Of a stretch of 64,000 nt of DNA, positions 31,695 to 50,582 are shown piece by piece; within the stretch, counting starts at the first letter, position 1; each line of letters begins with the position of its first letter. The position numbers and the translations under genes were made by a program. Under the pieces are notes generated by a model, which searched no databases, was not told the origin of the DNA, and saw nothing but the letters and a program-made list of their open reading frames with translations. The stretch spans positions 139,749 to 203,748 of the forward strand of contig NZ_CP006878.1 of the NCBI RefSeq assembly GCF_000816845.1, written 5' to 3'. This stretch comes from Rhizobium gallicum bv. gallicum R602sp. Lineage in GTDB: Bacteria; Pseudomonadota; Alphaproteobacteria; Rhizobiales; Rhizobiaceae.

Positions 31695-32351
31695 TGTCAT
31701 CGCTTCTTGAGCGTGATCATAGTGAGAACCGAAGTGATGCCGAGCTTAAAGGGAAGCCAATCCAGAGTGCCGCTCGGTTATTGATGTGAAACGCGCCGCG
31801 ATAGAAATCCGGCAACACTCCTCCGTGTGCCGCCCGAGGGTGGACACCCGCTTTCGCGGCCATCCGGGAATCCAATTTAGCGGACAGATTGGGTCGGCGG
31901 CGAACTATGCATTCGGTCTCCGGGCACCATCGCTCTCGCTTGCAGGGTCGGGTTCCGCAAACCGCGAAAGGCACGACTCATCGGAACTTAGGCGGTGCCA
32001 CGACTGAAGCTGACGCGACATTCGGTCACGCGGCGACGCAGAGTCCTTCGCTCAGCCAACACCTGACCCACTAAATCGAAGACACGAGTAAGCGGCCTGC
32101 GGGGAGCGACGACCTGGCACGAAGCTCGAAAATCGTGCGTCAAACGGTGGCCCAAACGGAAGCAAGCCAATCCCGCTCTTACCGATGGCGTCCTGGCCCG
32201 GTTCCGGATCTTCCACGATCAACCCATAAAGGGTCCGCTAGCAAGCTGCGGCCGCTCCCGCTTCGCGTCGCGCGGTGATCGCGCCCGCGCCCCGTGCCTC
32301 TTGAGGAGCCATCGAGCGGGAATTGGCCCGCTCCCGAAGGAGGCCTCTCAA
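31695..32351. other. boundary region between catabolic cargo and plasmid-maintenance block
   Basis: About 650 nt without a gene I can support. It includes an inverted repeat GCACGA / TCGTGC at 32117-32138 and, just before the next gene, GAGCGGG / CCCGCTC ahead of a GAAGGAGG ribosome site. Gene style changes here from catabolic operons to compact orphan plasmid families, so this may be an insertion boundary. No transposase or att-like repeat was seen. Confidence 0.4.
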
Positions 32352-32528
32352 ATGTCGCACGATCTCTCTCTCGCCCAGTCACACGCCTTCCAGCTCTCCC
32401 GTGACCTCATGGTCCCGGTCACCCTCTTCGAGGTTGACGGCGAATATGGCGTCCTGCCTTCCGACGAGATCGATGCCGACGACGATCTGGCGATCGTGCA
32501 TGAGTACATGCCATGGCCGGCTCATTGA
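32352..32528 (+). CDS. small conserved plasmid protein, function unknown
   Basis: 58 residues starting MSHDLSLAQSHAFQLSRDL and ending EYMPWPAH, acidic in the second half (SDEIDADDDLAIVHEY). It has a strong ribosome site (GAAGGAGG) and codon use like its neighbours. I recognise no domain. It is the first gene of the plus-strand block running toward oriT. An 8-bp inverted repeat (CCCTTGCG / CGCAAGGG, 32548-32573) follows it, without a T-run. Confidence 0.65.
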   Translation: MSHDLSLAQSHAFQLSRDLMVPVTLFEVDGEYGVLPSDEIDADDDLAIVHEYMPWPAH

Positions 32529-32728
32529 GCCGGCGCCGCCTGGCTGCCCCTTGCGAGCGGCAAGCCGCAAGGGAAGCTTCGCCGCTGCCAATGTCAGCTT
32601 GCATGATCCGACAATTGCGCGCCCGCGCCCTTGCAGTCTTTGCTCTGCGGGGCCTGCCGGAAGGTGTCCGTGAACCGACGGGCAAGGAAGGGCTATGGAG
32701 GCCGATCGCCGGGCGATCGGAAGGAAAA

Positions 32729-33760
32729 ATGAAGAGAAGAGAAATAGAAGCGTTGCGCGAGCAGGTCAGATGTGCGGCGGTGCTTGAGCATGCCGGGTTT
32801 GCAATAGACGCGAAGGAAAGCACACGGCGGGCAGTCAAATTCCGCCGCGGCGGTGAGATCATCATCGTCATCTATGAAGGGCGTGGTTGGTTCGATCCTC
32901 TTTCCGAGGCGAAGGGCGATGTGTTCCGGCTCGTAGAGCATCTCGATCGGGTCGGTTTTCTCGAAGGCGCAGAACGGGTCGCGGCTCTGGTCGGTTTTCA
33001 GATCACGGAGCCGGAATGGCGGGCGGCGAAACATGGCGAGAGATCTGACCTCTCTCTTCCCGATCGTTGGCAGTCCCGCCGGCATCCCTGGCCGCGTTCC
33101 GCGTCATGGCGATACCTCAATCGCGAGCGCCGCCTGCCAGCGAACGTGCTGCGAACGGCGATCAAAAGCGATCTCTTGCGCGAAGGTCCGCAAGGCAGCA
33201 TGTGGGCGCTGCACCGGGACCAGGCCGGGGTTTTGACCGGCTGGGAAGCGCGGGGTCCGCTATACCGGGGTTTTGCATCCGGGGGAACCAAGGTTCTTTT
33301 CCGCTTTGGTTCGGACAGCGCTTCGCGCCTGGCCGTCACGGAAGCCGCGATCGATGCCATGACCCTCGCAGCGATCGAAGGTTTGCGAGAGGGCACGCTT
33401 TATCTCAGCACTGGCGGTGGATGGTCGCCGACCACCGAGGCAGCCTTGGAGGAGTTGGCTACGAAGCCTGGCGTCCAGTTGGTTGCGGCGACGGACGCCA
33501 ATCCGCAGGGCGACATGTTTGCCGAACGGCTGCGGACGCTTGCCGATGATGTCGGCTGCGACTGGACGCGACTTCGGCCGCCCGAGGAGGATTGGAACGA
33601 GTCCCTGAAGATCATGGAAAGGGAAAAGAGGGAAAGGACGGAAGGAGGAGGCGTGCCGCATGCGCGCGGTCCGCGTCAAGGGAAGCTTCGCCCGGCGGAG
33701 CCGGCCCTTGACGCGGACGGTCGCGATGCCGGCGGCAGCCAAGGGGTCATGAAGGACTGA
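32729..33760 (+). CDS. TOPRIM domain protein (DUF3991-like), primase-related
   Basis: About 343 residues. The N-terminal 90 residues (REQVRCAAVLEHAGFAIDAKEST, GRGWFDPLSEAKGDVFRLVEHL) resemble DUF3991, a zinc-free relative of primase N-terminal regions. The C-terminal half has TOPRIM features: a glutamate in VTEAAIDAMTLAAIEG and an acidic pair in ATDANPQGD. Proteins of this kind are common on conjugative and phage-like plasmids and are thought to help priming or DNA processing after transfer. The ATG follows GGAAGGA; the frame is open 72 codons upstream through a non-coding leader. Confidence 0.8.
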   Translation: MKRREIEALREQVRCAAVLEHAGFAIDAKESTRRAVKFRRGGEIIIVIYEGRGWFDPLSEAKGDVFRLVEHLDRVGFLEGAERVAALVGFQITEPEWRAAKHGERSDLSLPDRWQSRRHPWPRSASWRYLNRERRLPANVLRTAIKSDLLREGPQGSMWALHRDQAGVLTGWEARGPLYRGFASGGTKVLFRFGSDSASRLAVTEAAIDAMTLAAIEGLREGTLYLSTGGGWSPTTEAALEELATKPGVQLVAATDANPQGDMFAERLRTLADDVGCDWTRLRPPEEDWNESLKIMEREKRERTEGGGVPHARGPRQGKLRPAEPALDADGRDAGGSQGVMKD

Positions 33761-33824
33761 AGAGGAAGGCAAGGTCGAGAGGACAGTGCCACGCTTCGGC
33801 CCGAAACCTCCGAAGGAGCTGCAG

Positions 33825-34430
33825 ATGAACCCCTCTCCCGCAATCCAAAAAGTCTTCCAGGGCGTCGCAAGCCGACCGCAGATGTTCCGCATGTTTGACC
33901 GTCATCTCCAGCGGCCCAACCGCTGGGAAGACCACGCGATGCCGCTCTATGCGGGCGAATGGTTCGAGATCGACGAAGACGGGCACGACTACATGTTCGA
34001 AATCCTGCCGCCGCTTTGGATCCGCGGCTCTATGTTCGCGATGCGCGAGTTCCTGACCGGCTCGGTGACCTCAGTGTTCTTCGCACTCCGGATCGACGAG
34101 GCGATCCGCTATTTCCACGGCTATTGCGACCTGTCCGATCCCTCGTCCGTCGAGACCATGCGCCTTGCAATTATCGAGCGCGAGAGCCGGCCGGTCCGGG
34201 CCATGACGCGCGAAGAGCGCCTCGAGCATATCTGGAGCAGCACGGCGGACGACTATCGCGGCTATGCGGGCGAGCGCTGGCCGGAGGCCTCACGCGGCAA
34301 GCGCACCGTGATGTTATACGGCGGCAAAGACGGCACTGTTCTGAAGCTGCTGGAAGATCTCAGCGACGACGAGATCGCCGCCAAACTGCCGGTACAACTG
34401 CGCCACCTCCGCTCGCCGATTGCGGCTTGA
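33825..34430 (+). CDS. DUF1419-like conserved plasmid protein
   Basis: About 201 residues; MNPSPAIQKVFQGVASRPQMFRMFD begins after a GAAGGAG ribosome site. Segments such as EDHAMPLYAGEWFEID, YMFEILPPLWIRG and FFALRIDEAIRYFHGYCDL match what I recall of a Rhizobium-specific family (DUF1419). No catalytic motif is visible. It lies between the TOPRIM gene and the large helicase gene. The function is unknown; the family name is from memory and only moderately certain. Confidence 0.7.
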   Translation: MNPSPAIQKVFQGVASRPQMFRMFDRHLQRPNRWEDHAMPLYAGEWFEIDEDGHDYMFEILPPLWIRGSMFAMREFLTGSVTSVFFALRIDEAIRYFHGYCDLSDPSSVETMRLAIIERESRPVRAMTREERLEHIWSSTADDYRGYAGERWPEASRGKRTVMLYGGKDGTVLKLLEDLSDDEIAAKLPVQLRHLRSPIAA

Positions 34431-34575
34431 GAGTTTCCGTTTGCATCCGTGCGCGAAGCAATCGCGCTCGGCCCACGATCGCGGCGCAGCCCATGCTGGC
34501 GGCCTCTCCACCCCTTCGCGTTCCTCGACTGCCCCTTGCGGCAGATCGATGACGCTCGTTCACAAGGACTTTTCG

Positions 34576-37500
34576 ATGAGCAACGACCCCTTCACCCTCG
34601 ATATGTTTGATAGCAGCGCTATGTCATCAGGACTCGGTCTTGGCGTAACCGCGTTCGGTGCTTTTGGTCCGCCGACCTGATCGCCGCGATTCGACTGCCC
34701 GAAGGCAGTTTTCGGCGTGACGCCGGCACGGACGTCGTGGTCGACATCCTCTTCTTCCGCAAGCGCAAGACGGGCGAGCCCGAAGGCGACCTTTCGTGGC
34801 TCGACCTGGAGGACGTCCGGCCGGCTGTCGAGGACGAGGGGGTGATCCGCGTGAACCGCTGGTTCGCGCAGCATCCAGAGTTCGTGCTCGGCGGTCATGC
34901 CCTCACCTCCGGCCCGTTAGGGGAGACCTATACGTGCCGGCCACGAGCCGGCGAGGAGCTCGACGCGTCGCTGACGGCAGCCGTCGCGCTTCTTCCGGAA
35001 GGCCTTTATGACGGCGAGCCGACGGCCATCGACATCGATCTGGAGGACGAACTTGCCGAGATCGTCGATCTCCGCCCCGACAACGCCAAGGTGCGCGAAG
35101 GCAGCTATTTTGTCGACGTCAGACATGGTCTCATGCAGGTCGTCGGCGGCGTGCCTGTTCCGGTTCATGTGCGCAAGGCCCGCAGTGGCGAGGGAATTTC
35201 CGAAAAGCATGTCCGGATCATTTGCAAACTGATCCCGATCCGCGATGCCGTGCGCGAGGTCCTGAAAGCCCAGGAACTGGACCGGCCGTGGCGGGACTGC
35301 CAAGTGCGGCTGCGTATCGCCTGGTCGAGCTTCGTTCGTGATTTTGGCCCGATCAACCACACGACGGTTTCGATCATCGAAGATGATATGACGGGCGAGG
35401 TTCGTGAAACCCATCGCCAGCCCAACCTGCAGCCCTTTCGTGATGATCCAGATTGCTGGTTGGTCGCCTCCATCGAGGACTATGACCTCGAAACCGACAC
35501 CGCCAGGCCCGGGCCGATTTTCTCCGAACGCGTCATCGCGCCCCCTTCCCCGCCCGTCATCGCCTCCGCCGCCGATGCCTTGGCCGTGGTCCTCAACGAG
35601 CGCGGACGCATCGATCTCGATCATATCGCCGAGCTTTTGCATTGCGACACGGATGCGGTTCTCGATGCGCTCGGCGACACAATCTTCTGCGATCCCGCCT
35701 ACGGCTCTTGGCAGACCTCCGATGCTTATCTCTCCGGCGCCGTGCGCACTAAGCTTGGGATTGCGGAAGCCGCGGCTGGTCTCGATGCCGCCTATGAGCG
35801 AAACGTCCGTGCGCTTCAGGCGGTGCAGCCCGCCGACCTTCGCCCTTCTGACATCACCGCTCGGCTGGGTGCTCCCTGGATTCCGGCTGCTGATATCGTC
35901 GACTTCGTCCACGAGACCATGGGTGCCGAGATCAGGATCCATCACATGCCGGAACTCGGCTCATGGACAGTCGAGGCGCGGCAACTTGGATGGACGGCGG
36001 CCGGCACATCCGAATGGGGCACCGACCGACGCCACGCCGGCGAGTTGCTTGCCGATGCGCTGAACAGCCGCGTGCCGCAGATCTTCGACGTCGTCAAGGA
36101 TACCGACGCCGAGCGGCGGGTGCTGAACGTCGTCGATACTGAGGCGGCTCGCGACAAGCTGCAGAAGATCAAACAGGCTTTTCAGAACTGGGTGTGGACC
36201 GATCCTGATCGCACCGACCGGCTGGCGCGGGTCTATAACGATCGCTTCAACAATATCGCGCCAAGAAAGTTCGACGGCTCGCATCTCAAACTTCCCGGCG
36301 CCTCTGCCGCCTTTGTTCTTTATGGGCATCAGAAGCGTGGCATCTGGCGCATCATCTCGTCGGGCTCGACCTATCTCGCCCACGCTGTCGGCGCCGGCAA
36401 GACCATGACGATGGCGGCCGCGATCATGGAACAGCGTCGGCTCGGGCTGATTGCCAAGGCGATGCTGGTTGTCCCGGGACATTGCCTGGCTCAGGCGGCG
36501 CGCGAGTTTCTCGCGCTCTATCCGAACGCCCGCATCCTCGTCGCCGACGAGACCAACTTCACCAAGGACAAACGCGCTCGTTTCCTGTCGCGGGCGGCAA
36601 CGGCGACCTGGGATGCGATCATCATCACCCACTCGGCATTCCGGTTCATCGCCGTGCCGTCGGCGTTCGAACAGCAGATGATCCAGGATGAGCTGGAGCT
36701 CTACGAGGAGCTGCTGACCAAGGTCGACAGCGAGGACCGTGTCTCCCGCAAGCGTCTCGAGCGGCTCAAGGAAGGGCTCAAGGAACGACTGGAGGCGCTT
36801 TCCACCCGCAAGGACGATCTGTTGACCATTTCCGAAATCGGCGTCGACCAGATTATCGTCGACGAGGCGCAGGAATTCCGCAAGCTTTCCTTCGCCACCA
36901 ACATGTCGACCCTGAAAGGCATCGATCCGAACGGTTCGCAGCGTGCCTGGGACCTCTATGTCAAGTCTCGCTTCATCGAGACGAGGAACCCCGGCCGCGC
37001 TTTGGTTCTCGCCTCCGGCACGCCGATCACCAACACGCTCGGGGAGATGTTCTCGGTCCAAAGGCTGCTCGGGTCCGACGCTTTGCGCGAGCGCGGGCTG
37101 CATGAGTTCGACGCCTGGGCCTCGACCTTCGGTGACACGACGACGGAACTCGAGATCCAGCCATCAGGCAAATACAAGCCCGTCAGCCGTTTCGCGAGCT
37201 TCGTCAACGTGCCGGAACTGATCGCCATGTTTCGGTCCTTCGCCGATGTGGTGATGCCCGAGGATCTCCGCGACTACGTCAGGGTGCCTGATCTCTCGAC
37301 CGGCCGGCGGCAGATCCTGACGGCCAAGCCGACGCAGGCGTTCAAGGATTACCAGACGATCCTCGACGCCCGTATCAAGGCGATCGAGATGCGCGAGGGA
37401 CCGGCGCAGCCCGGCGACGACATCCTGCTCTCCGTCATCACCGATGGTCGCCATGCGGCAATCGATCTCCGCCTGATCGACGCGGATAATGACAACGAGC

Positions 37501-38813
37501 CCGACAACAAGCTCAACCTGCTGGTCCAGAATACCTTCCGCATCTGGCAGGAGACGTCGCAAAGGACGTATCTCCAGCCCGACGGCAAGCCTTTCGATCT
37601 GCCGGGTGCGGCGCAGATGATCTTTTCGGATCTCGGCACCATTAATGTCGAGAAGAGCCGCGGTTTTTCCGCCTATCGCTGGATCAGGGACGAGCTCGTC
37701 CGCCTGGGCGTTCCGGCCTCCGAAATCGCCTTCATGCAGGACTACAAGAAGACCGAGGCCAAGCAGCGCCTGTTTGGCGACGTCCGCGCCGGCAGGATCC
37801 GTTTCCTGATCGGCTCGTCTGATACGATGGGCACCGGCGTCAATGCCCAACTCCGTCTCAAGGCGCTGCATCATCTCGACGTCCCATGGCTGCCCTCGCA
37901 GATCAAGCAGCGCGAGGGCCGGATCGTGCGTCAGGGCAACCAGCATGACGAAGTCGATATTTTCGCCTACGCCACCCAGGGCTCCCTCGACGCCTCGATG
38001 TGGCAGAACAACGAACGCAAGGCCCGCTTTATCGCGGCCGCCTTGTCCGGCGACACCTCGATCCGGCGGCTGGAAGATCTAGGCGAAGGGGCGGCCAATC
38101 AGTTCGCTATGGCGAAGGCGATTGCGAGTGGCGACGAACGCCTGATGCAGAAGGCAGGGCTGGAAGCCGATATCGCTCGCCTCGAACGGCTGCGTGCCGC
38201 CCATGACGACGATCAATATGCGGTGCGCCGGCAGATCCGCGACGCGGAACGCGATATCGAGATCTCGGTGCGACGGATTGCGGAAATCGGCACGGACATC
38301 GAGCGCCTGGTTCCGACTGCGGCCGAAGCCTTCGCCATGACTGTCGTCGATGAGGCTTTCAACGAACGGAAAGCAGCCGGTCGCGCCTTGATGAGGGAAA
38401 TTCTCACCCTTGTTCAGCTCCAGCAGGAAGACGATAGCGTCATCGTCTCGATCGGAGGCTTCGACCTCGTCTATTCCGGCGAGCGGTTCGGCAGGGACGA
38501 TGGGTATCGCTACACGACCCTTCTCCAGCGCACCGGAGCGGATTACGAGATCGATTTGCCGGTGACCGTGACCCCGGTCGGCGCCATCTCCCGCCTCGAG
38601 CACGCGCTCGGTGGTTTTGACGAGGAGCGGGAACGCTATCGCCATCGCCTGCATGACGCCCAGCGGCGTCTCGCCTCCTACCGCTCGCGCGAGGGCGGCC
38701 TTTTTGCGTTTTCCGAAGAACTCGCCGACAAGCGCCGGCAGCTACGGGACGTCGATGAGGCATTGGCAGCCGTGGCACGCGAGAAGAACTTATCCGCCTC
38801 GGAAGCGGCCTGA
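34576..38813 (+). pseudogene. large SNF2-type helicase / N6-methylase plasmid protein, internal out-of-frame deletion
   Basis: The true start (MSNDPFTLDMF, ATG 34576 with an AAGGA site) reads only about 34 codons to a stop at 34680. A different frame then opens at about 34671 with ADLIAAIRLPEGSFRR and continues 1358 codons from 34737 to 38813. Intact relatives that I recall are near 1700 residues and carry an N6-adenine methyltransferase (NPPF-type) domain between these parts; it is absent here. The remaining part keeps the P-loop HAVGAGKTMT, the DEAQ box (VDEAQEFRKL) and the RecA-like C-terminal motifs (SSDTMGTGVNAQLR, QREGRIVRQG), so it could function only if translation starts internally. 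Confidence 0.8.
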
Positions 38814-39392
38814 GGTCCGATGCCATGCCGGACCTCCGTCCGCTCTGGTTTTGGAAGCACTGCAGCATCCACATAGCTGCAGTGCACAAAAAGTGTTTCC
38901 AAGTGCTCAAAAATCGAGCATAACGCACACAGCTGATGCATATGGCGGCTTTCCTCCCAGTTCCGCCGCAGCAGCTGTTCCCCTCTGGAGGTTATTGACC
39001 TTCACACTTTCATGGGCCGCGGTTTCCGCTGGCCCATTTTTTTGTCTCCCATCTTACCCCAATCGACATCCCGTCGCGCGCAAGCCGATGCGTTTTGCAC
39101 CGGCGCGTCAGCCGCCGAAATGAAGGCAAGTAAGGAAGGAAAGAAGGCAGAGGGAGGTGAACCGGTCGCAGAGCAGTCCGCCGGTTGCCGCTGACGCTCA
39201 ACCGCGCCGCTCGCAATCCCGGCCACTCGTCTTCGCAGGGCTACGAGCCCCGCTTATCCTTCGTGACAGGAATGCTCGGCCGCAGTTGCACCCGACCGCC
39301 CGCTCCGCGGTCCGGGAGATGTCTTCGGAGAGATGAAGACGCGAGAAGGACAGGCAGAGGGCCGTGTCCAAATCCCCGAGAAGGAGCATCCC
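38814..39392. other. intergenic region with terminator and leader
   Basis: About 580 nt between the helicase and the ParB-like gene. It contains the terminator at 39012-39043 and a roughly 350-nt leader before the GAAGGAG site of the next gene. No RNA gene or protein recognised. Confidence 0.45.
39012..39043 (+). terminator. intrinsic terminator downstream of the helicase gene
   Basis: TGGGCC / GGCCCA arms around a 12-nt segment that itself can pair (GCGG..CCGC), followed immediately by seven T residues at 39037-39043. Confidence 0.8.
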
Positions 39393-41133: not shown

Positions 41134-41163
41134 CCGCCGCCCCGTCCTTCTCCGCTTGATCTT

Positions 41164-41195: not shown

Positions 41196-41229
41196 TCCAC
41201 CACCCGCAAAACTTGAAGGAGGATGCGCG

Positions 41230-42583: not shown

Positions 42584-42939
42584 TGTCCAATTCCGAGCAA
42601 CGCGCCGCGCAGTTTACCAGAATGGAATCGGCACGGCGGCAGACGCAGCACCAGCTCGATCTGATCGACCGGCAGATCACGCGACGCATGACCACAATCA
42701 TTCCCCAGCTTGGTCGCCGTCACTCCGGATATCGTCGCGGCAAGGCGCCGGAGCCAGGCGCCTTCCTCGAACGCTACCGGTCCAATCTGGCAGCGATCAC
42801 CGCCGAGCGTCAGCCGGAAATCGATGCGCTGTCGAGGAAACTCGCCCGACAGGATTCGGCAATCGCCGCGCTGCGGGCGCGAGCCGGTTCCGACGGCAAA
42901 GTCGTAACAGCTACCGGTCGTGGAGGCAGGACGCCATGA
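42583..42939 (+). CDS. small basic plasmid protein, function unknown
   Basis: A 118-residue, strongly basic and helical protein (MSNSEQRAAQFTRMESARRQ, then RRMTTIIPQLGRRHSGYRRG). The charged heptad-like pattern in residues 5-35 and 70-100 suggests coiled coil. GGGAGG lies upstream of the ATG, which overlaps the preceding stop by one base; the following gene also overlaps (ATGA). Translationally coupled trio of unknown role. Confidence 0.65.
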   Translation: MSNSEQRAAQFTRMESARRQTQHQLDLIDRQITRRMTTIIPQLGRRHSGYRRGKAPEPGAFLERYRSNLAAITAERQPEIDALSRKLARQDSAIAALRARAGSDGKVVTATGRGGRTP

Positions 42940-43343
42940 GCACGATCGGAGACCTGGAGCGAAGAGCAGGCATCGGCCCATCACCGGTGGAGCGAACCGC
43001 TTTCTGGCGGCAGTTCCATCACCTCGAAGGCGAAGCCTGCCTCAATGCCGGTGGCGCGGAACTCAAGCGGCTGATCGCTCTAAGGGAAGCACGGGCGGAT
43101 CCCAGACCGAAAACACGCGCCGTTCGTCGCACGCGCGAAACCCTGCCGCCTTTGACGCCGGAACAGGAAGCCGCACTTCAGTCCTATGCCGCCAGGCATG
43201 GACGGCGCTGGAAATCGATCCTCAACAACGCCTGGATGGGCGGGCCGCCGCATGATGACGGTGGTCTGCTGCGCGGGCTTCGCAACTCGCACGGTCCAAC
43301 CTGGCTGCAATCCTACCGGTTACCCAAGCCGGCCAAGCGATAG
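42936..43343 (+). CDS. conserved plasmid protein, function unknown
   Basis: A 135-residue basic protein. LTPEQEAALQSYAARHGRRWKSILNNAWMGG near residues 75-105 and a C-terminal LRNSHGPTWLQSYRLPK give it a recognisable, gene-like composition. A long upstream open frame in the same phase belongs to the frameshifted gene before it; the true start is the ATG overlapping the previous stop. No domain recognised. Confidence 0.68.
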   Translation: MSTIGDLERRAGIGPSPVERTAFWRQFHHLEGEACLNAGGAELKRLIALREARADPRPKTRAVRRTRETLPPLTPEQEAALQSYAARHGRRWKSILNNAWMGGPPHDDGGLLRGLRNSHGPTWLQSYRLPKPAKR

Positions 43344-43711
43344 GTCGAGCGCTTGACGTCGGCGAGCGGGAAAAGGCGGAGACAGGCGGCAGCGCCCGTC
43401 GTTTCATTCGAGGACTTCATGATCCCGGCCCTGCCGGATCGCCCTTCGGTTTTGCTGCGGTCTGAACCGGCGGCCGTGCGCTTCAAGGCCGCTGTCGCGC
43501 CGCGGGACGGCCGGACTCCGTCGTCCTTCACGGAGCAGGCTCGCGTGCTCTTTCGAGGGCAGTTTGCCCTCTTCGCCCGCAAACCGGCTCCGCTCGTCCA
43601 GGCAGGGCCGGACCCTGAAACGCCCTTCTTCCGCCGGTTCGGGATGACCGCACCGAAGGGCAAGCCGGCGTGGGCCGGAGCCCGTTCGGACGACCTCGAA
43701 AGGAAACGATC
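43344..43711. promoter_or_regulatory. leader region with a tight hairpin
   Basis: About 370 nt before the next gene. It includes a perfect hairpin GAGGGCA-GTT-TGCCCTC at 43555-43571, which overlaps a second possible pairing GTTTGC / GCAAAC (43562-43584), so the two are mutually exclusive. An open frame spans the region but its sequence is not protein-like. GAAAGGAAA lies before the ATG at 43712. Confidence 0.45.
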
Positions 43712-44299
43712 ATGGCCAGGCCCGCACCCTCCTCTCGCCATTCCGCCCGCGTCGTGCAACTGCGCAAGGGCGCCACCATCGAAATGGTCCGGCTGACATG
43801 CCCCGACGCCAGCCAGGCGCTGAAGATCGCCGAGAGTTTCGGCACCGCCGTCATCGACAGCGACGGCATCCGCGACCTGCATGAACGGCTCCTCATCGAG
43901 ACCGCCGATGCGCTCGGTGATGGCCTGGGCGACAAGGCCATGCAGATCCACCTGCAGCGGATCGTCGGCGCCTTCGTCGGCTCGGCCCACGGCGCCGGCC
44001 AGTTCTACAGCCGCGCTGTCACCGAGGCGCGCGATGCCACCGCAAAGGCCGCCAACGACGCCCGCGACGAGGACCTTGACGGTCCCGTCGGCTATGACAG
44101 CGCCGCCCAGCGCAAGCGCGAGTTCGCCGCCGACATGGGTGTGCAGGCCCATTCGCTCAGAATGGCGGCCGAGGGCGCCGTCGCCGCCTATGCCCAGGTG
44201 ATCGGCGAGACCTGGAAGCCTTTCGACCGGCCGGTCGGGCAGCCGGGTCACTCGCTGGGCCGCAAGGCCGCCGAAGCGCAGATCTCGGCCTTCGACTAG
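43712..44299 (+). CDS. conserved alanine-rich plasmid protein, function unknown
   Basis: A 195-residue helical protein rich in alanine, with ATIEMVRLTCPDASQALKIAESFG near the start and GSAHGAGQFYSRAVTEARDATAKAAND in the middle. No signal peptide or membrane segment. It ends nine nt before a terminator, so it is probably a single-gene unit with its own leader. I do not recognise a named domain. Confidence 0.7.
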   Translation: MARPAPSSRHSARVVQLRKGATIEMVRLTCPDASQALKIAESFGTAVIDSDGIRDLHERLLIETADALGDGLGDKAMQIHLQRIVGAFVGSAHGAGQFYSRAVTEARDATAKAANDARDEDLDGPVGYDSAAQRKREFAADMGVQAHSLRMAAEGAVAAYAQVIGETWKPFDRPVGQPGHSLGRKAAEAQISAFD

Positions 44300-44307
44300 G
44301 CCTTGCC

Positions 44308-44330
44308 GGCGGGGCTACGTCCCCGCCTTT
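44308..44330 (+). terminator. terminator
   Basis: GGCGGGG / CCCCGCC, a 7-bp stem with a 6-nt loop and TTT, starting nine nt after the preceding stop codon. Confidence 0.65.
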
Positions 44331-44603
44331 CGATGAACGCTACGACGGCCGGTTCCCTGACGGAGCCGGCCTGTTTTCGTGTTGCTGACACGGTCAATCG
44401 GGAAACGGGAATCAGGCAGATGGCACGCCCGTCGCGGCCCGTTCCGTTTGTCGGGTCTGCAGGAGCCACCGGCAGATGCAACGGCTACGCCGTCCTCCAC
44501 TTAAGTTCCTGCCGTTCCGGTGCATCGGCCGGCTGATCGGCTCCTGCCTCCTGCCCTCCGCAACGGGCCGCGATGGGCGCGGCCTCAACATGGAGGCTTG
44601 AAG
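44331..44603. promoter_or_regulatory. ardC leader containing the shared GC-rich hairpin
   Basis: About 270 nt. The element GGCCGCGATGGGCGCGGCC at 44566-44584 folds as a 7-bp stem (GGCCGCG / CGCGGCC) and ends seven nt before the GGAGG ribosome site. The identical 19-mer precedes both DUF736 genes (46111-46129 and 48677-48695). Confidence 0.6.
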
Positions 44604-45527
44604 ATGAGCAATACGGAGAAACACCGGGTCGATCTTTATACCCGCATCACGGATAGAATCGTTGAGGATCTGGCGAAGGGCGTACGTCCGTGGATGAAGC
44701 CGTGGAACGCCGAGAACACGACCGGCCGTATTACCCGGCCGCTACGTCATAACGGGCAGCCCTATTCGGGCGTCAACGTGCTGCTTCTTTGGTCGGAGGG
44801 CAACGCCCGGGGATATACGTCATCCACGTGGATGACGTTCAAGCAGGTCCTGGAGCTGGGTGCTACCGTCCGCAAGGGCGAGACGGGTGCCACGGTCGTC
44901 TTCGCCAGCCGTTTCACTAAGTCCGAAACCGACGGAAACGGCGGCGAGCTTGAGCGGGAAATCCCCTTCCTGAAGGCGTACAGCGTGTTCAACGTCGAAC
45001 AGATCGACGGACTTCCCGACCAGAATCATCACGGGCCGCTGCCGGTTCTCGATCCAGTCGAGCGCATCGAGAATGCCGATCGGTTCTTCCGCAACACCGG
45101 CGCTTCAATTCGCCATGGCGGCAACCAGGCCTTTTTTGCGCCGGCGGCCGATATCATCCAGATGCCACCATTTGAGAGCTTCAAGGATGCGGCAAGCTAC
45201 TACGCGACCTTGAGTCATGAAGTCACCCATTGGACGGCGCCGGGGCATCGCCTCGGCCGCGACCTCAGCCGCTATGCCAAGGACAAATCCGAGCGGGCGC
45301 GAGAGGAACTGATTGCAGAACTCGGCAGCTGCTTTCTTTGCGCCGACCTCGGTATTGTTCCCGAACTCGAGCCCCGCCCCGATCACGCCTCGTACCTCGG
45401 CTCCTGGCTCAAGGTCCTGAGCGACGACCGACGGGCTATCTTCCAGGCGGCGGCGCATGCACAACGGGCGGTAAGTTTCCTGCACTCGCTGCAGCCCGAA
45501 ACCGCTGGCGAGCGGCTCGCTGCCTGA
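44604..45527 (+). CDS. ardC: ArdC-type antirestriction protein
   Basis: A 307-residue protein with the two ArdC parts. The N-terminal ssDNA-binding domain (DUF1738) shows LYTRITDRIVEDLAKGVRPWMKPW near residue 10, then YSGVNVLLLW and TWMTFKQVLELGATVRKGETG. The C-terminal SprT-like zinc protease has LSHEVTHWTAPGHRL with HExxH near residue 205 and EELIAELGSCFL supplying the third ligand. ArdC from plasmid pSA protects incoming single-stranded DNA and blocks type I restriction; the same role is inferred here. GGAGG precedes the ATG. It is the most diagnostic leading-region gene in the block. Confidence 0.92.
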   Translation: MSNTEKHRVDLYTRITDRIVEDLAKGVRPWMKPWNAENTTGRITRPLRHNGQPYSGVNVLLLWSEGNARGYTSSTWMTFKQVLELGATVRKGETGATVVFASRFTKSETDGNGGELEREIPFLKAYSVFNVEQIDGLPDQNHHGPLPVLDPVERIENADRFFRNTGASIRHGGNQAFFAPAADIIQMPPFESFKDAASYYATLSHEVTHWTAPGHRLGRDLSRYAKDKSERAREELIAELGSCFLCADLGIVPELEPRPDHASYLGSWLKVLSDDRRAIFQAAAHAQRAVSFLHSLQPETAGERLAA

Positions 45528-45533
45528 GGACCA

Positions 45534-45710
45534 TCAGCGTCGGTCGTTGGTCTCGCCAGCGGCCGGCACCTGTTCAGGCTTAAACGCGGAGAGCGTGTCA
45601 GGATCAGCCGTAAGGTCCAGTTTGCCCCAGATCGAGGTTTTCCGGTCAATCGGCTTGAGCTTCCGGGACGGTTTGATTTCGACGATGAACGGCTTTGGCT
45701 GCTGACGCAT
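45534..45710 (-). CDS. small conserved basic protein, function unknown
   Basis: 58 residues starting MRQQPKPFIVEIKPSRKLKP and ending AGETNDRR, on the strand opposite to its neighbours. A good ribosome site (TGGAGGA, four nt before ATG) supports it. It converges on ardC with six nt between stops. Unknown family; the proline and lysine-rich start may be disordered. Confidence 0.6.
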   Translation of the reverse strand: MRQQPKPFIVEIKPSRKLKPIDRKTSIWGKLDLTADPDTLSAFKPEQVPAAGETNDRR

Positions 45711-45970
45711 AGATCCTCCAGGCGACGATTCGCGAGCACGACGATAGCCCGAAGAACGGCCAATGCAACGCCCTCGTTCGGCTGTTCCCGGACGTCTGAT
45801 TTTGACATGTGGACGGGGCGGCAGGTCCACCGTTGCAGGGATCCGGCAGGCAGTCGTCGAGCAGCTGCTATCGCCATATTCCTTTGGCCCTGAGCCAGGC
45901 CACGTCCTTTGCGGGCTCGATGAGGCATGTCTGATCGAAAACCGGCTTCGCCTCGATCGTCCTCCCGCAA

Positions 45971-46044
45971 CGGCCTTGCAAAACTTTCTTCCCCTGAGCG
46001 CGGTGCGCCCATTCCTCGCGGAACAACAAAGTTTCTCCTGGCCG
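45971..46044 (+). promoter_or_regulatory. nested long-range hairpin in the leader of DUF736 copy 1
   Basis: Outer arms CGGCC / GGCCG enclose AT-containing inner arms AAACTTT / AAAGTTT separated by 40 nt of GC-rich sequence. The same arrangement recurs in copy 2 and, with different sequences, before three further genes. Candidate single-stranded-DNA promoter or RNA leader. Confidence 0.5.
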
Positions 46045-46110
46045 CCCTCCATTTCATTCCGGCCTTTCAGGTGCGGTCCGATCGTCCCCGATCCTTGCGA
46101 CAGCTATCGA

Positions 46111-46129
46111 GGCCGCGATGGGCGCGGCC
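46111..46129 (+). promoter_or_regulatory. shared GC-rich leader hairpin (DUF736 copy 1)
   Basis: GGCCGCGATGGGCGCGGCC, identical to the elements before ardC and DUF736 copy 2, ending 24 nt before the ATG and just upstream of the AAAAGGA ribosome site. Confidence 0.6.
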
Positions 46130-46153
46130 CGAAACAGCAAAAGGAATACGACA

Positions 46154-46462
46154 ATGGCAACCATCGGCACCTTCACCACCTCCGAAACCGGCTTCAACGG
46201 CTCGATCCGCACGCTCGCCCTCAACGTCAAGGCCCGCATCGCCCGCATCGAAAACCCCTCCGACAAGGGCCCGCACTTCCGCATCTACGCGGGTAACGTC
46301 GAGCTGGGTGCGGCCTGGCAGAAGCGCTCCGAGCAGGACCGCGACTACCTCTCGGTCAAGCTCGACGACCCGAGCTTCCCCGCTCCGATCTACGCGACGC
46401 TCACCGAAGTCGAGGGCGAGGACGGCTACCAGCTGATCTGGTCCCGCCCCAACCGGGACTGA
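46154..46462 (+). CDS. DUF736 family protein, copy 1
   Basis: 102 residues, the full length of DUF736: starts [18 protein letters not shown], with [22 protein letters not shown] in the middle and [12 protein letters not shown] at the end. The family is abundant on alphaproteobacterial plasmids and integrative elements and its function is unknown; the beta-rich pattern suggests a small nucleic-acid-binding or OB-like fold (inference). It differs from copy 2 by only a few residues. It has its own leader with two hairpins and its own terminators. Confidence 0.9.
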
Positions 46463-46472
46463 GATCTGGACA

Positions 46473-46548
46473 GGCCCCGCCACTGAGGCGGGGCCAACCG
46501 GCCAAAAAGACAAGCCGGTGGCAGGCATCGAGCTGCCGCCGGCTTTTT
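46473..46548 (+). terminator. double hairpin terminator after DUF736 copy 1
   Basis: First a 9-bp stem GGCCCCGCC / GGCGGGGCC (46473-46495) without T-run, then AGCCGG..GCAG / CTGC..CCGGCT (46513-46544) followed by TTTT. The second is absent after copy 2. Confidence 0.75.
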
Positions 46549-46712
46549 CGGCGCCATGCGGGACCGGAAGTGTCTGATTATGTGAGCAAGGGCAAGCAGA
46601 ACTTGAGATGAAGAGGCGCGTTTGATTTAAATGCGCTGCTCCCAGGGCAAGCCATCCTAACAGGGCCGTCAACGAGCGCGTCTTTTTTCTGATTTAGCCG
46701 AGTTTCAATTTG

Positions 46713-47252
46713 ATGGCCGAAAACGATATTCAAGTCAGCCTCGAAAACTGCCTTCAGTTACTGGTAGGGCTGCCATTAAGCATTGCCCGCAACGCTGCGG
46801 ACATGAAGGTTTTCCATTTTGGTACGATTCGACCGCATCCCTCAGGCAGAGGGACTGTCGGGGCCTATGCACTGCATGTTCAATGCCCGTGGCGCTTCGT
46901 TGACGAGAAGACAATAGTCACAGGGACATCAGATCGTTTCGTCGAGCCGGCTGACGGAACGGACCCAAACGATGACGACCCTAAATCGGGAAACCTACAG
47001 CTCATCAAAATTGCATCTCTGCTGAAAGGCTACGACGCGGAGACAAACTCCTACGTGAACGCCACAGAGCAACTCGTCGTCATAGCCGTTAACACAGACA
47101 ACTATGGCGGGGCCGACTTCTTGCTGTCAGGTGGTTACCGCCTGCAGGTTTTCCCGGATGGTTCACTTGGTGAGGATTGGCGCTTTGTCGAGCTTCAAGG
47201 CCGCCATGTCGTTATCGAAGGCGGTCGCGTACAGGTTGACATAGCAATCTAA
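46713..47252 (+). CDS. orphan cargo protein, possibly immunity-like
   Basis: 179 residues starting MAENDIQVSLENCLQLLVGLPLS. The composition differs from its neighbours, with visibly lower GC. The sequence is beta-rich (FHFGTIRPHPSGRGTVGAYALHVQCPWRFV, LVVIAVNTDNYGGADFLLSGGYRLQVFPDGS) and resembles small orphan immunity proteins of polymorphic-toxin loci, but I cannot name a family. A TTG three nt upstream is an alternative start and the ribosome site is weak. It is inserted between the two DUF736 repeats with the next gene, suggesting acquisition as cargo. Confidence 0.65.
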   Translation: MAENDIQVSLENCLQLLVGLPLSIARNAADMKVFHFGTIRPHPSGRGTVGAYALHVQCPWRFVDEKTIVTGTSDRFVEPADGTDPNDDDPKSGNLQLIKIASLLKGYDAETNSYVNATEQLVVIAVNTDNYGGADFLLSGGYRLQVFPDGSLGEDWRFVELQGRHVVIEGGRVQVDIAI

Positions 47253-47371
47253 TCTCAACACCCGCTCGTCGGAGTTTTTCAACGGTATCTGCCATAAGCG
47301 GACGTTCGTTCGACGTCACAATGACCGTAAGGTAATGTTGGATAGAAATGCTGTGAAAGGAAAGGCAGAGA

Positions 47372-48286
47372 ATGAATCATTTCGATATACTTGGCCGCAG
47401 CATTGCCGACCCAGTTGTCGAGTCTTATCTTGCCCATCACGAGAAGCTAGACCCTATCGATTTTCGTACGAATGCTGAGATGGGATTTTTCGGCGGTTTC
47501 GATAGCGGTTTCGGTCTGCAGGTGGAAAGCCTTTCCGCATACAGTGCCGAATTCGAAGAGGTGCGGTCAAGACGCCTGTCGGACGGCGAGGAGAGGATCG
47601 TCTCTCGCCTGTCATTTACCGGGCCGGATGCGATCAGGGCAGTGCAACGCGCCTATTCGTCGGCGTTGCCATTCGGTCTGACGTTCGGAGACAGCAGCGA
47701 CATCGTGGCCGAGAAGCTCGGGACGGGCCCGTTTCGAGAAGGCAAGAGCAGCACGCTGCCGGAATATTCAGCCGAACGTTTCGTTCACTCATATGCTGTC
47801 GGCAATATAGTCGTGATCGCAAAATATGACGCGGACTTGCGGCTGATGGCGGTTTATCTGATGCAGGCTGACCGCACCATGCTCAAGGCCACGCGCCGAA
47901 AAGCGTCCTTGCCCAAGCAGAAGATCATGCCTGGTAATATCGATAAAGTCGAAGCATTGCGGGTCCAGATGCCGACGCAGCGCTGGCGGGAGTCCATGGC
48001 CGAGGGAGACGAGCTTTTCAACGAGGCCGATATCGCCACGGCTGAAACGGCGCTGAATGCGTTCATCGACACGGTGAAGGCCGCAACCAGCCAGCGGGAT
48101 GCGCAGGCAATCCAGGCAGCGGTCAAGGACATCGTTCTTGCGATCAATGAGATCCACGGCAGAAGCGGGATGATCGAAACACTGGAGCGCGACGAACTTG
48201 GTGTCCTGATCGACGCGGTCGTAAGGGCGTCGGGCTTCAGCCTCCCGGATGATGAAGATATCACCGCAGAATGGCGGGAGTGGTAA
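47372..48286 (+). CDS. orphan cargo protein, function unknown
   Basis: 304 residues from ATG 47372 after GGAAAGG. The N-terminal half contains GFFGGFDSGFGLQVESLSAYS and ALPFGLTFGDSSDIVAEKLG; an LPFGLxFG..DVxxxLG motif appears in several orphan proteins next to toxin-immunity modules. The C-terminal 130 residues are helical and acidic (ATAETALNAFIDTVKAATSQ, DEDITAEWREW). No signal or membrane segment. Located with the preceding gene between the DUF736 repeats. The toxin-immunity link is inference only. Confidence 0.65.
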   Translation: MNHFDILGRSIADPVVESYLAHHEKLDPIDFRTNAEMGFFGGFDSGFGLQVESLSAYSAEFEEVRSRRLSDGEERIVSRLSFTGPDAIRAVQRAYSSALPFGLTFGDSSDIVAEKLGTGPFREGKSSTLPEYSAERFVHSYAVGNIVVIAKYDADLRLMAVYLMQADRTMLKATRRKASLPKQKIMPGNIDKVEALRVQMPTQRWRESMAEGDELFNEADIATAETALNAFIDTVKAATSQRDAQAIQAAVKDIVLAINEIHGRSGMIETLERDELGVLIDAVVRASGFSLPDDEDITAEWREW

Positions 48287-48499
48287 CGAGACCCGTGTCG
48301 CGGAAATCCTGATTTTCGCTACGGGGGCGGCAAGCGTCGTGTCACGGATGTTCCCTTGATGACGGCAGGATCCGGCAGGCAGTCGGGGGCGGCTGCCATC
48401 ATCATATACCTTCCGCCACTGAGCCGAGCCACGGCCTTCGCGGGCTCGATAAGGCATGTCTGATCGAAAACCGGCTTCGCCTCGATCGTCCTCCCGCAA

Positions 48500-48573
48500 C
48501 GGCCTTCCAAAACTTTCTTCCCCTGAGCGCGATGCGCCCATTCCTCGCGGAACAACAAAGTTTCTCCTGGCCG
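48500..48573 (+). promoter_or_regulatory. nested long-range hairpin in the leader of DUF736 copy 2
   Basis: Outer CGGCC / GGCCG and inner AAACTTT / AAAGTTT arms are preserved exactly as in copy 1 while the sequence between them has small changes, consistent with the arms being what matters. Confidence 0.5.
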
Positions 48574-48676
48574 TCCTCCATTTCATTCCGGCCCTACGAG
48601 CCACCCCGTTGCGCAGGCGTAACGGGGACCCCGGGGGTGCGGTCCGATCGTCCCCGATCCTTGCGACAGCCATCGA

Positions 48677-48695
48677 GGCCGCGATGGGCGCGGCC
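48677..48695 (+). promoter_or_regulatory. shared GC-rich leader hairpin (DUF736 copy 2)
   Basis: Third copy of GGCCGCGATGGGCGCGGCC, 24 nt before the ATG of DUF736 copy 2. Confidence 0.6.
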
Positions 48696-48719
48696 CGAAA
48701 CAGCAAAAGGAATACGACA

Positions 48720-49028
48720 ATGGCAACCATCGGCACCTTCACCAGCTCCGAAACCGGCTTCAACGGCTCGATCCGCACGCTTGCCCTCAATGTCAAGGCC
48801 CGCATCGCCCGCGTCGAAAATCCCTCCGACAAGGGCCCGCACTACCGCATCTACGCCGGCAACGTCGAGCTGGGTGCGGCCTGGCAGAAGCGCTCCGAGC
48901 AGGACCGCGACTACCTCTCGGTCAAGCTCGACGACCCGAGCTTCCCCGCTCCGATCTACGCGACGCTCACCGAGGTCGAGGGCGAGGACGGCTACCAGCT
49001 GATCTGGTCCCGCCCCAACCGGGACTGA
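48720..49028 (+). CDS. DUF736 family protein, copy 2
   Basis: 102 residues, nearly identical to copy 1; visible differences are TSSETG for TTSETG, ARVENP for ARIENP and GPHYRIY for GPHFRIY, all conservative, so both copies appear to be under selection. The ATG follows the same AAAAGGA site. Having two near-identical copies on the same strand gives a substrate for recombination that would delete the cargo between them. Confidence 0.9.
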
Positions 49029-49110
49029 GATCCGGACAGGAACCGGAATATGTCTGCTCAGAAGATGCTATCGTGCCGGGAAGAAATGCCGGCGTCGAGG
49101 ACGAGCGGTG

Positions 49111-49164
49111 CCCCCAATTTTGCCTCTGCTCCGGTTCCCTCCACTCCAACAAAATCGGCTTCCC
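49111..49164 (+). promoter_or_regulatory. leader inverted repeat, AT arms with C-rich flank
   Basis: CCCCCAATTTTG and CAAAATCGGCTTCCCC: ATTTTG (49117-49122) pairs with CAAAAT (49150-49155) across 27 nt. The same conserved flanks occur at 49622-49676 before the next gene, and the unit lies about 100 nt upstream of the 54-residue gene. Confidence 0.5.
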
Positions 49165-49261
49165 CACTCGCCGGCTCCGCCGGTCGCTTCCGCGCTCCTT
49201 GACCCCGCCATCTCTTCCCGCCCCGGCGTCTCGTCTTTCACGAACTCAAGGAGATGAGACG

Positions 49262-49426
49262 ATGACCATCGAACAGCACATCGAGGAGCTGCGCGCCGAG
49301 TTGAGGAACGCCTGCGACGCCGTCGAGCGCCGCCAGGTCGAAGCGGAGCTTCAGCTCGCCGAGGCCGATCTGGCCGTGGCGCTTGCCGAACAGGACGGCA
49401 TCATCGAAGCCGAGCCGCCTTTCTGA
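49262..49426 (+). CDS. small acidic coiled-coil protein
   Basis: 54 residues, almost entirely one acidic amphipathic helix (MTIEQHIEELRAELRNACDAV, then QVEAELQLAEADLAVALAEQ). AAGGAGATG precedes the ATG. Length and heptad-like pattern suggest a small oligomeric or partner-binding protein. No named family recognised; its neighbourhood and leader are typical of this block. Confidence 0.65.
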   Translation: MTIEQHIEELRAELRNACDAVERRQVEAELQLAEADLAVALAEQDGIIEAEPPF

Positions 49427-49761
49427 GGCGGCTCTCATTCTGCCGGAATATCAGCCTGTCGGCCGGATCGACCGGCCTTCCGGCTGTCAGGGATTTCATC
49501 CCTCGACACTCCCGCCGGCTCACGCCGGATACGGTCACGCCCCCTCCGGGACCGTGGGTCTCTTCTCTCTATGACGTCCCACAGTACTCCAGCAAATCCG
49601 GCGTCAAGGACGGCGCGGTCTCCCCCAATTTTTCCGCCGTTGCGTTGCACTTCCCTTCAGAAAAATCGGTTCCCCCGCTTGCAAGCCGCGTACCGCGATC
49701 CTTGACCCCTCTTTGCCACGGAGTGGCCGATCTCCGTCATTAAGATGAAGGAGATCACACA
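49427..49761. promoter_or_regulatory. leader of the 163-residue gene with conserved inverted repeat
   Basis: About 335 nt. CCCCCAATTTTTC and GAAAAATCGGTTCCCCC at 49622-49676: ATTTTTC (49628-49634) pairs with GAAAAAT (49660-49666) across 25 nt. A palindrome ACGGTC / GACCGT near 49532-49557 follows the preceding gene. GAAGGAG lies before the ATG. Confidence 0.5.
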
Positions 49762-50253
49762 ATGACAACTGACCAGAATCTTGCGCTCTACACCAAGCTT
49801 TCCGGTTTCCGGCTCGTTGTCCGGGCGAACCGCTTCGGCTGCGATACCGACGTCTCGCGAAAGCTCCATGAGCGACTGCTCGAAGGGCTCGAGGCGGCTG
49901 CCGGTCGTATCCGGACCATCATGGCATTGGAGCAGAGCGTTCTCGCCGACGACGACGAATATGCCGCGTACCGGCTGGAAGGTGCGACCGAGATCTTCGG
50001 ACGCTTCACCATCAATCTGCTGGATGAGCTCGACATCGATTTCGACACGCACGAATACCGCGTCAATGGCGGCGATTGGTGCATCGCGTTGACGGCGGAC
50101 TATCGCGGCGTCGACATCGACTATCCTGAGCTGATTGCGCTCACCGACGACGAACTCGGCTCACTTGCGCCAATCATCAAGGATATCACGCGGGAAACCG
50201 GTATCGCGGTAAATGCCTCCCGTGTCAGCTACATCAGGTGCGGAGCATCATAA
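49762..50253 (+). CDS. conserved plasmid protein, function unknown
   Basis: 163 residues starting MTTDQNLALYTKLSGFRLVV, mixed alpha/beta and acidic (ADDDEYAAYRLEGATEIFGRF, LDELDIDFDTHEYRV, DWCIALTADYRGVDIDYPEL). Codon use and the strong ribosome site support it. I do not recognise the family. Transcribed in the same direction as the rest of the block, with its own hairpin leader. Confidence 0.7.
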   Translation: MTTDQNLALYTKLSGFRLVVRANRFGCDTDVSRKLHERLLEGLEAAAGRIRTIMALEQSVLADDDEYAAYRLEGATEIFGRFTINLLDELDIDFDTHEYRVNGGDWCIALTADYRGVDIDYPELIALTDDELGSLAPIIKDITRETGIAVNASRVSYIRCGAS

Positions 50254-50582
50254 CCGATCCTGCGGCGGGCTCGATCATCCGGAGGGCGGCGAGAGCGGCC
50301 CTTCGTTGATATGCCGCCGAGACCATCGCGATGATGGCGAGAACGACCAGTTGAGCCTCTTCCTTTCGACCTGCCGTCATCTCTCATCGGGGATGTTGCA
50401 GCCCGTTCGTCGGGACGCAACCTGCCGCCGCCAGAATTTTCCCCGCCGCGCTGCGGCTCCTCGCCGATCAAAATTCGGTCGCCGGCAGGTCCTCCACATC
50501 CGTTTCGGCCTTGTCAGGTGCATCCCTCCTTTCCGGTCTGCGCTCACACCCGCGATGACCGCAATCGACAAGGAGATCCATC
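50254..50582. promoter_or_regulatory. leader with elaborate nested hairpin
   Basis: About 330 nt. At 50421-50489 outer arms CCTGCCG / CGGCAGG enclose GAATTTT / AAAATTC (50434-50440 and 50470-50476), and the 29-nt interior can form GCCGC-GCT-GCGGC. It is the clearest example of the nested architecture seen before several genes here, about 95 nt upstream of the broken 57-residue gene. Confidence 0.55.

Follow-up and report, generated by a model that had tools for sequence, protein, structure and literature searches.

Introduction

Can the genes beside a plasmid's origin of transfer (oriT) be read from the single strand that enters a recipient? The question is raised by a 64,000-nucleotide (nt) stretch of DNA from Rhizobium gallicum bv. 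gallicum R602sp (contig NZ_CP006878.1, positions 139,749 to 203,748; hereafter the window, numbered from its first letter). An earlier note, made from the sequence alone, had pointed to long hairpin leaders before plus-strand genes of the window and suggested that they act as promoters on the transferred strand. On comparative evidence we think it highly likely that C, D and E, three of these leaders, act as single-stranded promoters on the entered minus strand, the transfer strand (T-strand). The comparisons make a strong computational case for a putative new sequence class of single-stranded promoter, which takes in three of seven leader types and follows a clear structural rule.

Promoter boxes on the transfer strand

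The seven conserved leader types, p43k, ArdC, DUF736 (in two copies), C, D, E and 32.1 kb, are all long imperfect hairpins. The inverted repeats listed in the earlier note exist at all five places (45971, 48500, 49117, 49628 and 50434), and there are more at 43.4, 44.4 and 32.1 kb. Relatives were collected as 79 loci from genome contigs by DUF736 alignment (the best 80 of 371 relatives), together with five annotated plasmids. Removal of near-identical and gap-rich rows reduced the distinct sequences from 98 to 56 for DUF736, 62 to 48 for C, 20 to 17 for D, 66 to 55 for ArdC, 53 to 40 for p43k and 39 to 31 for E, and left 11 of 11 for 32.1 kb; these non-redundant sets were folded. Out-of-frame translations of p43k and TraD were used purely to mark positions; for this reason the p43k leaders were anchored one base off, and some of them may be missed.

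On the 3' arm of the T-strand, leader C reads TCCTTGAgG, then 17 nt, then NAnnnT in nearly all relatives. Within its -35 (48 sequences) the first T is present in 48/48, the second T in 38/48, the G in 46/47 and the A in 44/47; within its -10, -11A is found in 47/48 and -7T in 47/47, the inner three bases vary more, and there is little information in the six columns that follow -7. Leader D (17 sequences) has -12T in 16/17 and both -11A and -7T in 17/17, with the inner three bases among its few variable columns. Leader E has TTGCG, 16 nt and CAnCAT, with NAnnnT in 29/31. The sigma-70 -10 element depends most on these positions. The -10 positions were taken from alignment columns, which replaced two regex anchors: one gave 36/46 with mis-anchored rows, and the other (8/46) fell mostly on the ribosome site. 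An AT block lies about 20–24 nt upstream of the -35, where a UP element would be expected, and its arm in leader C shows A-T/T-A swaps with pairing kept. The AT arms that the earlier note had stressed are not the core promoter. Its expectation of boxes in the folded minus-strand leaders was borne out at 49117, 49628 and 50434, which have a -35 and a -10 on the correct arm with -11 unpaired, and failed at 45971 and 48500, where none was found. The alternative it had named, that ordinary promoters explain expression, gained no ground: between 43.3 and 51.1 kb, ordinary sigma-70-like sites are about as frequent as chance predicts (3 sites against an expected 1.6), and none lies inside C or D.

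A predicted fork at -12/-11

In the minus-strand consensus fold, -12 is paired with a probability of 0.98 in C and 0.97 in D, and -11 to -7 with at most 0.08. Folds of single sequences with DNA parameters (46/48 C and 17/17 D sequences) gave a mean pairing of 0.78 at -12, of 0.13 (C) and 0.20 (D) at -11, and of 0.29–0.48 from -10 to -7, with the -35 and most of the spacer paired. Leader E folds with -12 in a pair and with -11 and -10 unpaired. RNA polymerase open complexes have this geometry, a fork at -12/-11, at their upstream edge. The pairing of the C spacer is well above chance (Watson-Crick pairing 0.803 versus 0.643 when shuffled, standard deviation 0.011, maximum of 500 shuffles 0.673), and 9 of its 14 pairs have compensatory types.

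Consensus folds held 68–106 pairs per leader type, part of them in local hairpins outside the main stem. Counted on pairs common to the folds of both strands, columns with compensatory types (at least two sequences each) numbered 23 in C, 20 in ArdC, 18 in E, 11 in p43k, 2 in 32.1 kb and 1 in D; for DUF736, where one sequence was enough, 32 of 70 pairs had them. The compensatory changes that the earlier note had proposed to look for are therefore present, strongly in the family of the 49117 leader (C) and in DUF736 too. Consensus folding restricted to Watson-Crick pairs (no G-U) gave almost no pairs. By folding energy, the leaders ranked 4 (ArdC), 27 (E), 31 (D), 62 (p43k), 97 (DUF736 copy 2), 99 (32.1 kb), 182 (C) and 186 (DUF736 copy 1) in a scan of 638 windows, and only those of ArdC, D and E were among the 50 lowest. 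Since the leaders are unexceptional by single-sequence energy, the case is comparative, and energy was dropped as evidence. The lower folding energy of the minus strand was also set aside as proof, because strand composition favours that strand.

If C, D and E work as proposed, the entered T-strand would fold back so that its 3' arm serves as the non-template strand, carrying the -35 and -10, and its 5' arm as the template that continues into the gene. The stem of C and D would span the -35 and most of the spacer, end at -12 and leave -11 to -7 unpaired, so that an RNA polymerase carrying the housekeeping sigma factor would find the -10 already melted. In C and D, transcription would run out of the hairpin at its base, about 25–30 nt ahead of the start codon. 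Once the complementary strand is made, the hairpin would be lost and the boxes on the minus strand would face away from the gene, so expression would stop. Sigma-70 recognition, the start site, transcription and its timing are what we infer for C, D and E; conserved structure, boxes, spacing, orientation and the place beside oriT are read from the sequences themselves.

The leading side of the transfer region

The genes repA, repB and repC at 60.3–64 kb, adjoined by ctRNA_p42d and an S-element, mark the window as a repABC plasmid. It carries a Ti-type (MOBQ) transfer region with traG, traD and traC on the minus strand (52.05–54.69 kb) and traA starting at 54719 on the plus strand. The oriT core is situated between traC and traA; on the minus strand it reads, in order, an inverted repeat, TATAATTGCG and CCCTT. 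A minus-strand core at most 250 bp upstream of traA was found in 57 of the 58 loci that have a traA N-terminus (window included) and a plus-strand core in 0 of 58; locus L008 has a core on neither strand. The core of locus L086 carries GTAAGTGCGCCCTT, which we take to be the RSF1010 form of the nick region. By homology to RSF1010 and pTiC58, we assume that the minus strand is the nicked one; by RSF1010 homology, the relaxase would presumably stay on the CCC end while the strand moves leftward through traC, traD and traG and then from 51 to 32 kb. The strand and direction supposed in the earlier note agree with the minus-strand core beside traA, the choice of nick strand being by homology. With the minus strand predicted to leave leftward, 32–51 kb would form the leading region, its plus-strand genes templated by the T-strand. 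The transfer region shares its gene order, relaxase family and oriT core with Ti-type traCDG/oriT/traAFB regions, and the marks of the Ti-type MOBQ2 group are all present: a MobA/MobL-helicase TraA, divergent traCDG and an RSF1010-like oriT. The portion of PMC6856555 that concerns these relaxases relates Ti and rhizobial TraA to RSF1010 MobA, which supports the family relation as distinct from the nick base.

Further elements in other genomes

The segment 49085–49262, which excludes the -10, was used to search 61 genomes of the family, a set that may overlap the discovery loci. It matched 23 places on 17 contigs of 14 genomes. NAnnnT occurs at 15–19 nt in 24 of 26 distinct elements (the window's C and D included), 21 of them by regex and 3 by eye; the latter have TATCCT, CAAAAT and TATCGT as -10 and TTGGCG, TGGAGG and TTTACG as -35 (L091, L093 and L097, respectively). 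The remaining elements are L102, with TTTAAT, and L101, without either box. In a histogram of 20 rows, spacers of 15, 16 and 17 nt account for 6 rows each and 19 nt for 1, and no other length between 0 and 27 exceeds 2 rows; one row is a reverse arm, the sole one without the hexamer pattern at 15–19 nt. Some of the related -10s are near consensus (TATAAT, TACAAT, TAGAAT).

A traA match (E ≤ 1e-50) is present on 10 of the 17 element-bearing contigs, and 9 of these 10 show the predicted arrangement (p = 0.011). The only element misoriented to traA, L101 (G020:C10:47334-47483), is also the only one of the 26 without either box, and may be a copy that has decayed or is of another kind. A regex covering the entire architecture matched 67 times in the predicted orientation and 4 times in the opposite one, against 1.0 per shuffle over 1.475 Mb, in loci chosen by DUF736 that overlap the discovery set. 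Leader C has matches in 468 of 72,556 plasmid records, 286 of which cover at least 80% of the query (counted as sequence matches). Such matches are found outside Rhizobiaceae too, on Sphingomonas, Sphingobium and Labrenzia plasmids. At L108 784–2100 (genome G045), three C-type elements stand in tandem before different downstream sequences, which suggests that a hairpin may be duplicated together with its gene.

Alternative readings of the leaders

Leaders that directly precede start codons could be structured 5' untranslated regions, that is, plus-strand mRNA elements such as attenuators, anti-Shine-Dalgarno or riboswitch-like structures; the outer DUF736 stem reaches the ribosome site, and the DUF736 and ArdC loops read CCTCC. 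A cis-regulatory RNA would tolerate G-U over A-C, and this was not seen. On pairs common to the plus and minus consensus folds, in columns at least 60% Watson-Crick, the plus-strand G-U:A-C counts were 89:107 for DUF736, 82:120 for C, 19:39 for D, 53:95 for E and 75:90 for p43k; ArdC (171:133) and 32.1 kb (20:15) lean slightly towards G-U, far below the 11:1 that the same procedure gave for ar15 RNA of the same plasmids (16 sequences). With no G-U excess relative to this control, plus-strand mRNA is unlikely as the selected molecule. As no Rfam family reached gathering score in the leaders and the minus-strand -11A and -7T would be left without explanation, we regard an untranslated-region function as highly improbable. 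Counted by columns, wobble in C, D and E together favours the minus strand (44 versus 74, p = 0.007), as it does in DUF736 (17 versus 31); p43k is balanced (20:24), and ArdC (31:23) and 32.1 kb (12:7) lean the opposite way. All wobble p values are rough, the sequences being related. Wobble in the C stem on a structure chosen for the T-strand (G-T 170, A-C 34) was not used, being biased by the choice of structure.

Could the hairpins matter only as double-stranded DNA, or not at all? The -35 and -10 are readable on the minus strand of double-stranded DNA, where an ordinary promoter on the left arm would fire leftward and the hairpin would be incidental. We give this very little credence, since the C spacer covaries with the far arm, pairing ends at -12, one orientation, toward oriT beside traA, prevails on 9/10 contigs, and the leftward transcript would enter the end of the preceding gene. 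It is also very unlikely that the leaders are operators or cruciforms bound by a plasmid protein. The near balance of G-T and A-C deviations in the pooled box-less leaders (355 versus 345) would fit a double-stranded function; an operator would not be expected to show a -35/-10 signature, asymmetric bulges or an orientation rule, and loops of 30–40 nt do not favour cruciforms. A third possibility is that the leaders are single-strand initiation (priming) sites at which RNA polymerase or primase starts the complementary strand, with gene expression secondary. F Frpo is reportedly described, in the title of a 1997 paper by Masai and Arai, as promoter and primer source both, the block encodes a TOPRIM/DUF3991 protein, and priming would suit the box-less leaders. 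Set against this, the gene belonging to C or D follows each of them directly, a ribosome site comes just past the predicted start, and several copies per plasmid would seem beyond what priming needs. We therefore consider priming as the main function unlikely.

Leaders without recognisable boxes

By inspection, no -10 was found on the T-strand 3' arm of the p43k, ArdC, DUF736 and 32.1-kb leaders, and neither inspection nor the strict scan described below found a rebuilt -35/-10 in them. As judged from the alignments, they would be conserved DNA folds similar to C, D and E, and may be priming sites, sites for other sigma factors or protein-binding folds. The DUF736 and ArdC leaders have a loop element in common, which on the plus strand reads CGCAACGGC, an insert, GCCGYCCTCCA and CGGCC. 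An identical 19-mer, GGCCGCGATGGGCGCGGCC, precedes the start codons of ArdC and of both DUF736 genes (44566–44584, 46111–46129 and 48677–48695).

Weighing the single-stranded promoter

Several observations count against a single-stranded promoter in C, D and E. The boxes are missing from four of the seven leader types, and the window's own examples are poor: its -10s are weak (CACGAT, TACTGT, CAACAT), the -35 of C is here TCGACG, and the spacer of D is only 15 nt. Leader D shows no covariation, because it hardly varies; positions -9 to -7 of leader E are predicted to be paired; and leader C is only 182nd of 638 by folding energy. When a strict fork criterion was applied to single-sequence minimum-free-energy folds, no leader of the window passed, not even C and D, and the F Frpo control did not pass either, so the fork rests on ensembles and alignments. 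Over all seven families the minus-strand wobble bias is weak (124 versus 159 columns, p = 0.043). One ordinary promoter-like site lies just upstream of leader E (50306–50335, plus strand). Finally, 7 of the 17 element-bearing contigs have no traA match, and genome G020 holds one wrongly oriented element.

Genes of the leading block

Between 32.5 and 49 kb, the plus-strand genes encode Toprim_2/DUF3991, DUF1419, an SNF2-type helicase, ParB_N, ArdC (ArdcN plus MPTase-PolyVal) and two DUF736 proteins. A nuclease gene and a WGR-type gene are on the minus strand, the latter placed by tblastn (its relative at locus L004 is PF05406). The layout given in the earlier note, with TOPRIM, helicase, ParB-like, ArdC and DUF736 genes on the plus strand toward oriT, stands; its methylase does not, as only helicase domains, and no methylase domain, scored in Pfam in the large protein concerned (SNF2-type helicase, 34737–38813, 1358 amino acids (aa)). 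This protein has a weak similarity to DrmD (DISARM), below NCBIfam cut-offs. In relatives DUF736 is on the plus strand, left of traG/traA and pointing to traG/oriT/traA, in 69 of the 69 rows having both, in loci picked by DUF736 of which some rows are near-identical. The order ParB-like, p43k, ArdC, DUF736, 54-aa, 163-aa and then minus-strand WGR and nuclease genes recurs with gaps and insertions. Coordinates are collected in Table 1.

Table 1. Features of the transfer region, leaders and leading genes in the window
Feature	Position	Strand	Remark
traA relaxase (MobA/MobL, AAA_30)	54719..58102	+	domain search
oriT core, inverted repeat and predicted nick region	54681..54711	-	T-strand predicted to leave leftward
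Leader C, T-strand hairpin	49060..49261	-	predicted single-stranded promoter of 54-aa open reading frame (ORF)
Leader C -10	49070..49075	-	CACGAT; family NAnnnT
Leader C -35	49093..49098	-	TCGACG; TTGAgG in most relatives; 17-nt spacer
Leader C AT arm	49116..49121	none	pairs with 49151-49156; UP-element-like place
Leader C partner arm	49199..49204	+	TTGACC; family-spaced NAnnnT downstream in 1/46 relatives
Leader D, T-strand hairpin	49570..49761	-	predicted single-stranded promoter of ORF 49762-50253
Leader D -10	49581..49586	-	TACTGT; family TAnnnT
Leader D -35	49602..49607	-	TTGACG; 15-nt spacer
Leader D partner arm	49702..49707	+	TTGACC; no family-spaced -10 downstream, 0/17
Leader E, T-strand hairpin	50380..50582	-	before small ORF closed in window
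Leader E -10	50393..50398	-	CAACAT; family NAnnnT
Leader E -35	50415..50420	-	TTGCGT; 16-nt spacer
DUF736 leader copy 1	45866..46159	-	long conserved hairpin, no -10 found
DUF736 leader copy 2	48390..48725	-	95-97% repeat of copy 1
ArdC leader hairpin	44419..44586	-	28-nt outer arms, no -10 found
p43k leader hairpin	43430..43700	-	no -10 found
32.1-kb conserved leader	32131..32370	-	left end of block, no -10 found
p43k	43712-44299		ORF of 195-aa protein
ardC	44604..45527	+	domain search
DUF736 gene 1 (PF05284)	46154..46462	+	Pfam
DUF736 gene 2 (PF05284)	48720..49028	+	Pfam
54-aa ORF	49262-49426	+	after leader C
163-aa protein	49762..50253	+	after leader D; no Pfam/NCBIfam/PADLOC/PHROGs match at limits used

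The 54-aa, 163-aa and 57-aa proteins received no name from NCBIfam, PADLOC, PHROGs or Pfam. The ORF after leader E is here an ATG followed by a stop (50583–50588), though leader E is conserved; its counterpart at L004 10377–10550 has an open 57-aa frame. The DUF736 gene and its leader are duplicated (45890–46369 versus 48419–48935, 95–97%), with ORFs 46710 and 47372, of no known function, between the copies. The ar15 small RNA lies at 38931–39041 (117 bits), upstream of the ParB-like gene, and recurs in relatives.

Discussion

If C, D and E are what they seem, a plasmid could switch on establishment genes before being double-stranded, and the 54-aa and 163-aa proteins would be marked as probably needed in the first minutes in the recipient. 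Such leaders would then offer a route to new establishment and anti-defence proteins in symbiosis and Ti-type plasmids. The structural prediction is sharp: a natural DNA strand would take on, by folding, the shape that the RNA polymerase bubble has at its upstream edge. The signature of stem, fork and NAnnnT on the 3' arm is portable, and could serve to find such promoters without sequence homology. More tentatively, and with somewhat less than even confidence, we suggest that rhizobial and agrobacterial MOBQ plasmids hold a whole programme of zygotic expression, with a separate fold-activated element for almost all leading genes. One class would be pre-melted sigma-70 promoters with a hairpin ending exactly at the -12/-11 fork, the other would be read by a different polymerase partner or by primase, and conversion to double-stranded DNA would turn the promoters away.

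The single-stranded promoters reported in the published portions considered here are those of F and ColIb, together with candidates that trace back to these or to four islands. Samuel et al. 2024 (PMC11541004), in the sections concerned, describe anti-defence genes in leading regions and, alongside them, promoters homologous to Frpo in their thousands, which were identified by BLAST from known Frpo and single-strand initiation (ssi) sequences; further candidates came from a search for boxes and folds in four islands, followed by BLAST from those. A 2026 survey of PLSDB used BLAST from the same sequences, according to its relevant part (PMC12826799). The main text of PMC11541004 has 0 occurrences of rhizob-, agrobacterium or ArdC, and that of PMC12826799 has no rhizob- and no Agrobacterium. 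Among the open-literature matches listed (titles and abstract starts, with subscription journals mostly outside), none concerns single-stranded promoters in rhizobial or agrobacterial plasmids, and no paper on the leading side of Ti-type plasmids stood out among the literature matches listed. For one gene of the block a role in the recipient is on record: ArdC is described, in the part of PMC7213743 that deals with it, as an anti-restriction protein needed there.

Between 32–51.2 kb of the window and the F leading region we found no sequence similarity, only matches of 20–26 nt at E 0.9. A consensus box scan of the F Frpo regions gave no clear answer, so F was compared for fold only. The fork at -12/-11 is seen in the C and D alignments; F was checked by the strict scan alone, which missed C and D too. 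C, D and E resemble Frpo in function, while by sequence, compared with the F leading region only, they are not assignable as members.

The likeness in function runs through the whole arrangement. According to the sections of PMC9849209 on F, early transient expression depends on Frpo1 and Frpo2, whose -10 and -35 are rebuilt on the strand that enters, and the account of Frpo/ssi in PMC11541004 adds stimulation by single-strand binding protein as a feature. Like the Frpo/ssi elements of F and ColIb-P9 as those sources portray them, C, D and E lie in what would be the leading region, upstream of genes templated by the T-strand (the nick strand being assigned by homology), and their T-strand is computed to fold into a long stem-loop with an AT-rich apical stem and with a -35 and -10 that folding of the strand is predicted to restore, aimed at the gene. 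The anti-defence islands outlined in PMC11541004 likewise have leading genes in T-strand orientation with single-stranded promoters, as the window appears to have. Unlike F, the window belongs to a MOBQ, repABC plasmid of the Hyphomicrobiales, and its three box-bearing elements lie within 1.4 kb, each before its own gene.

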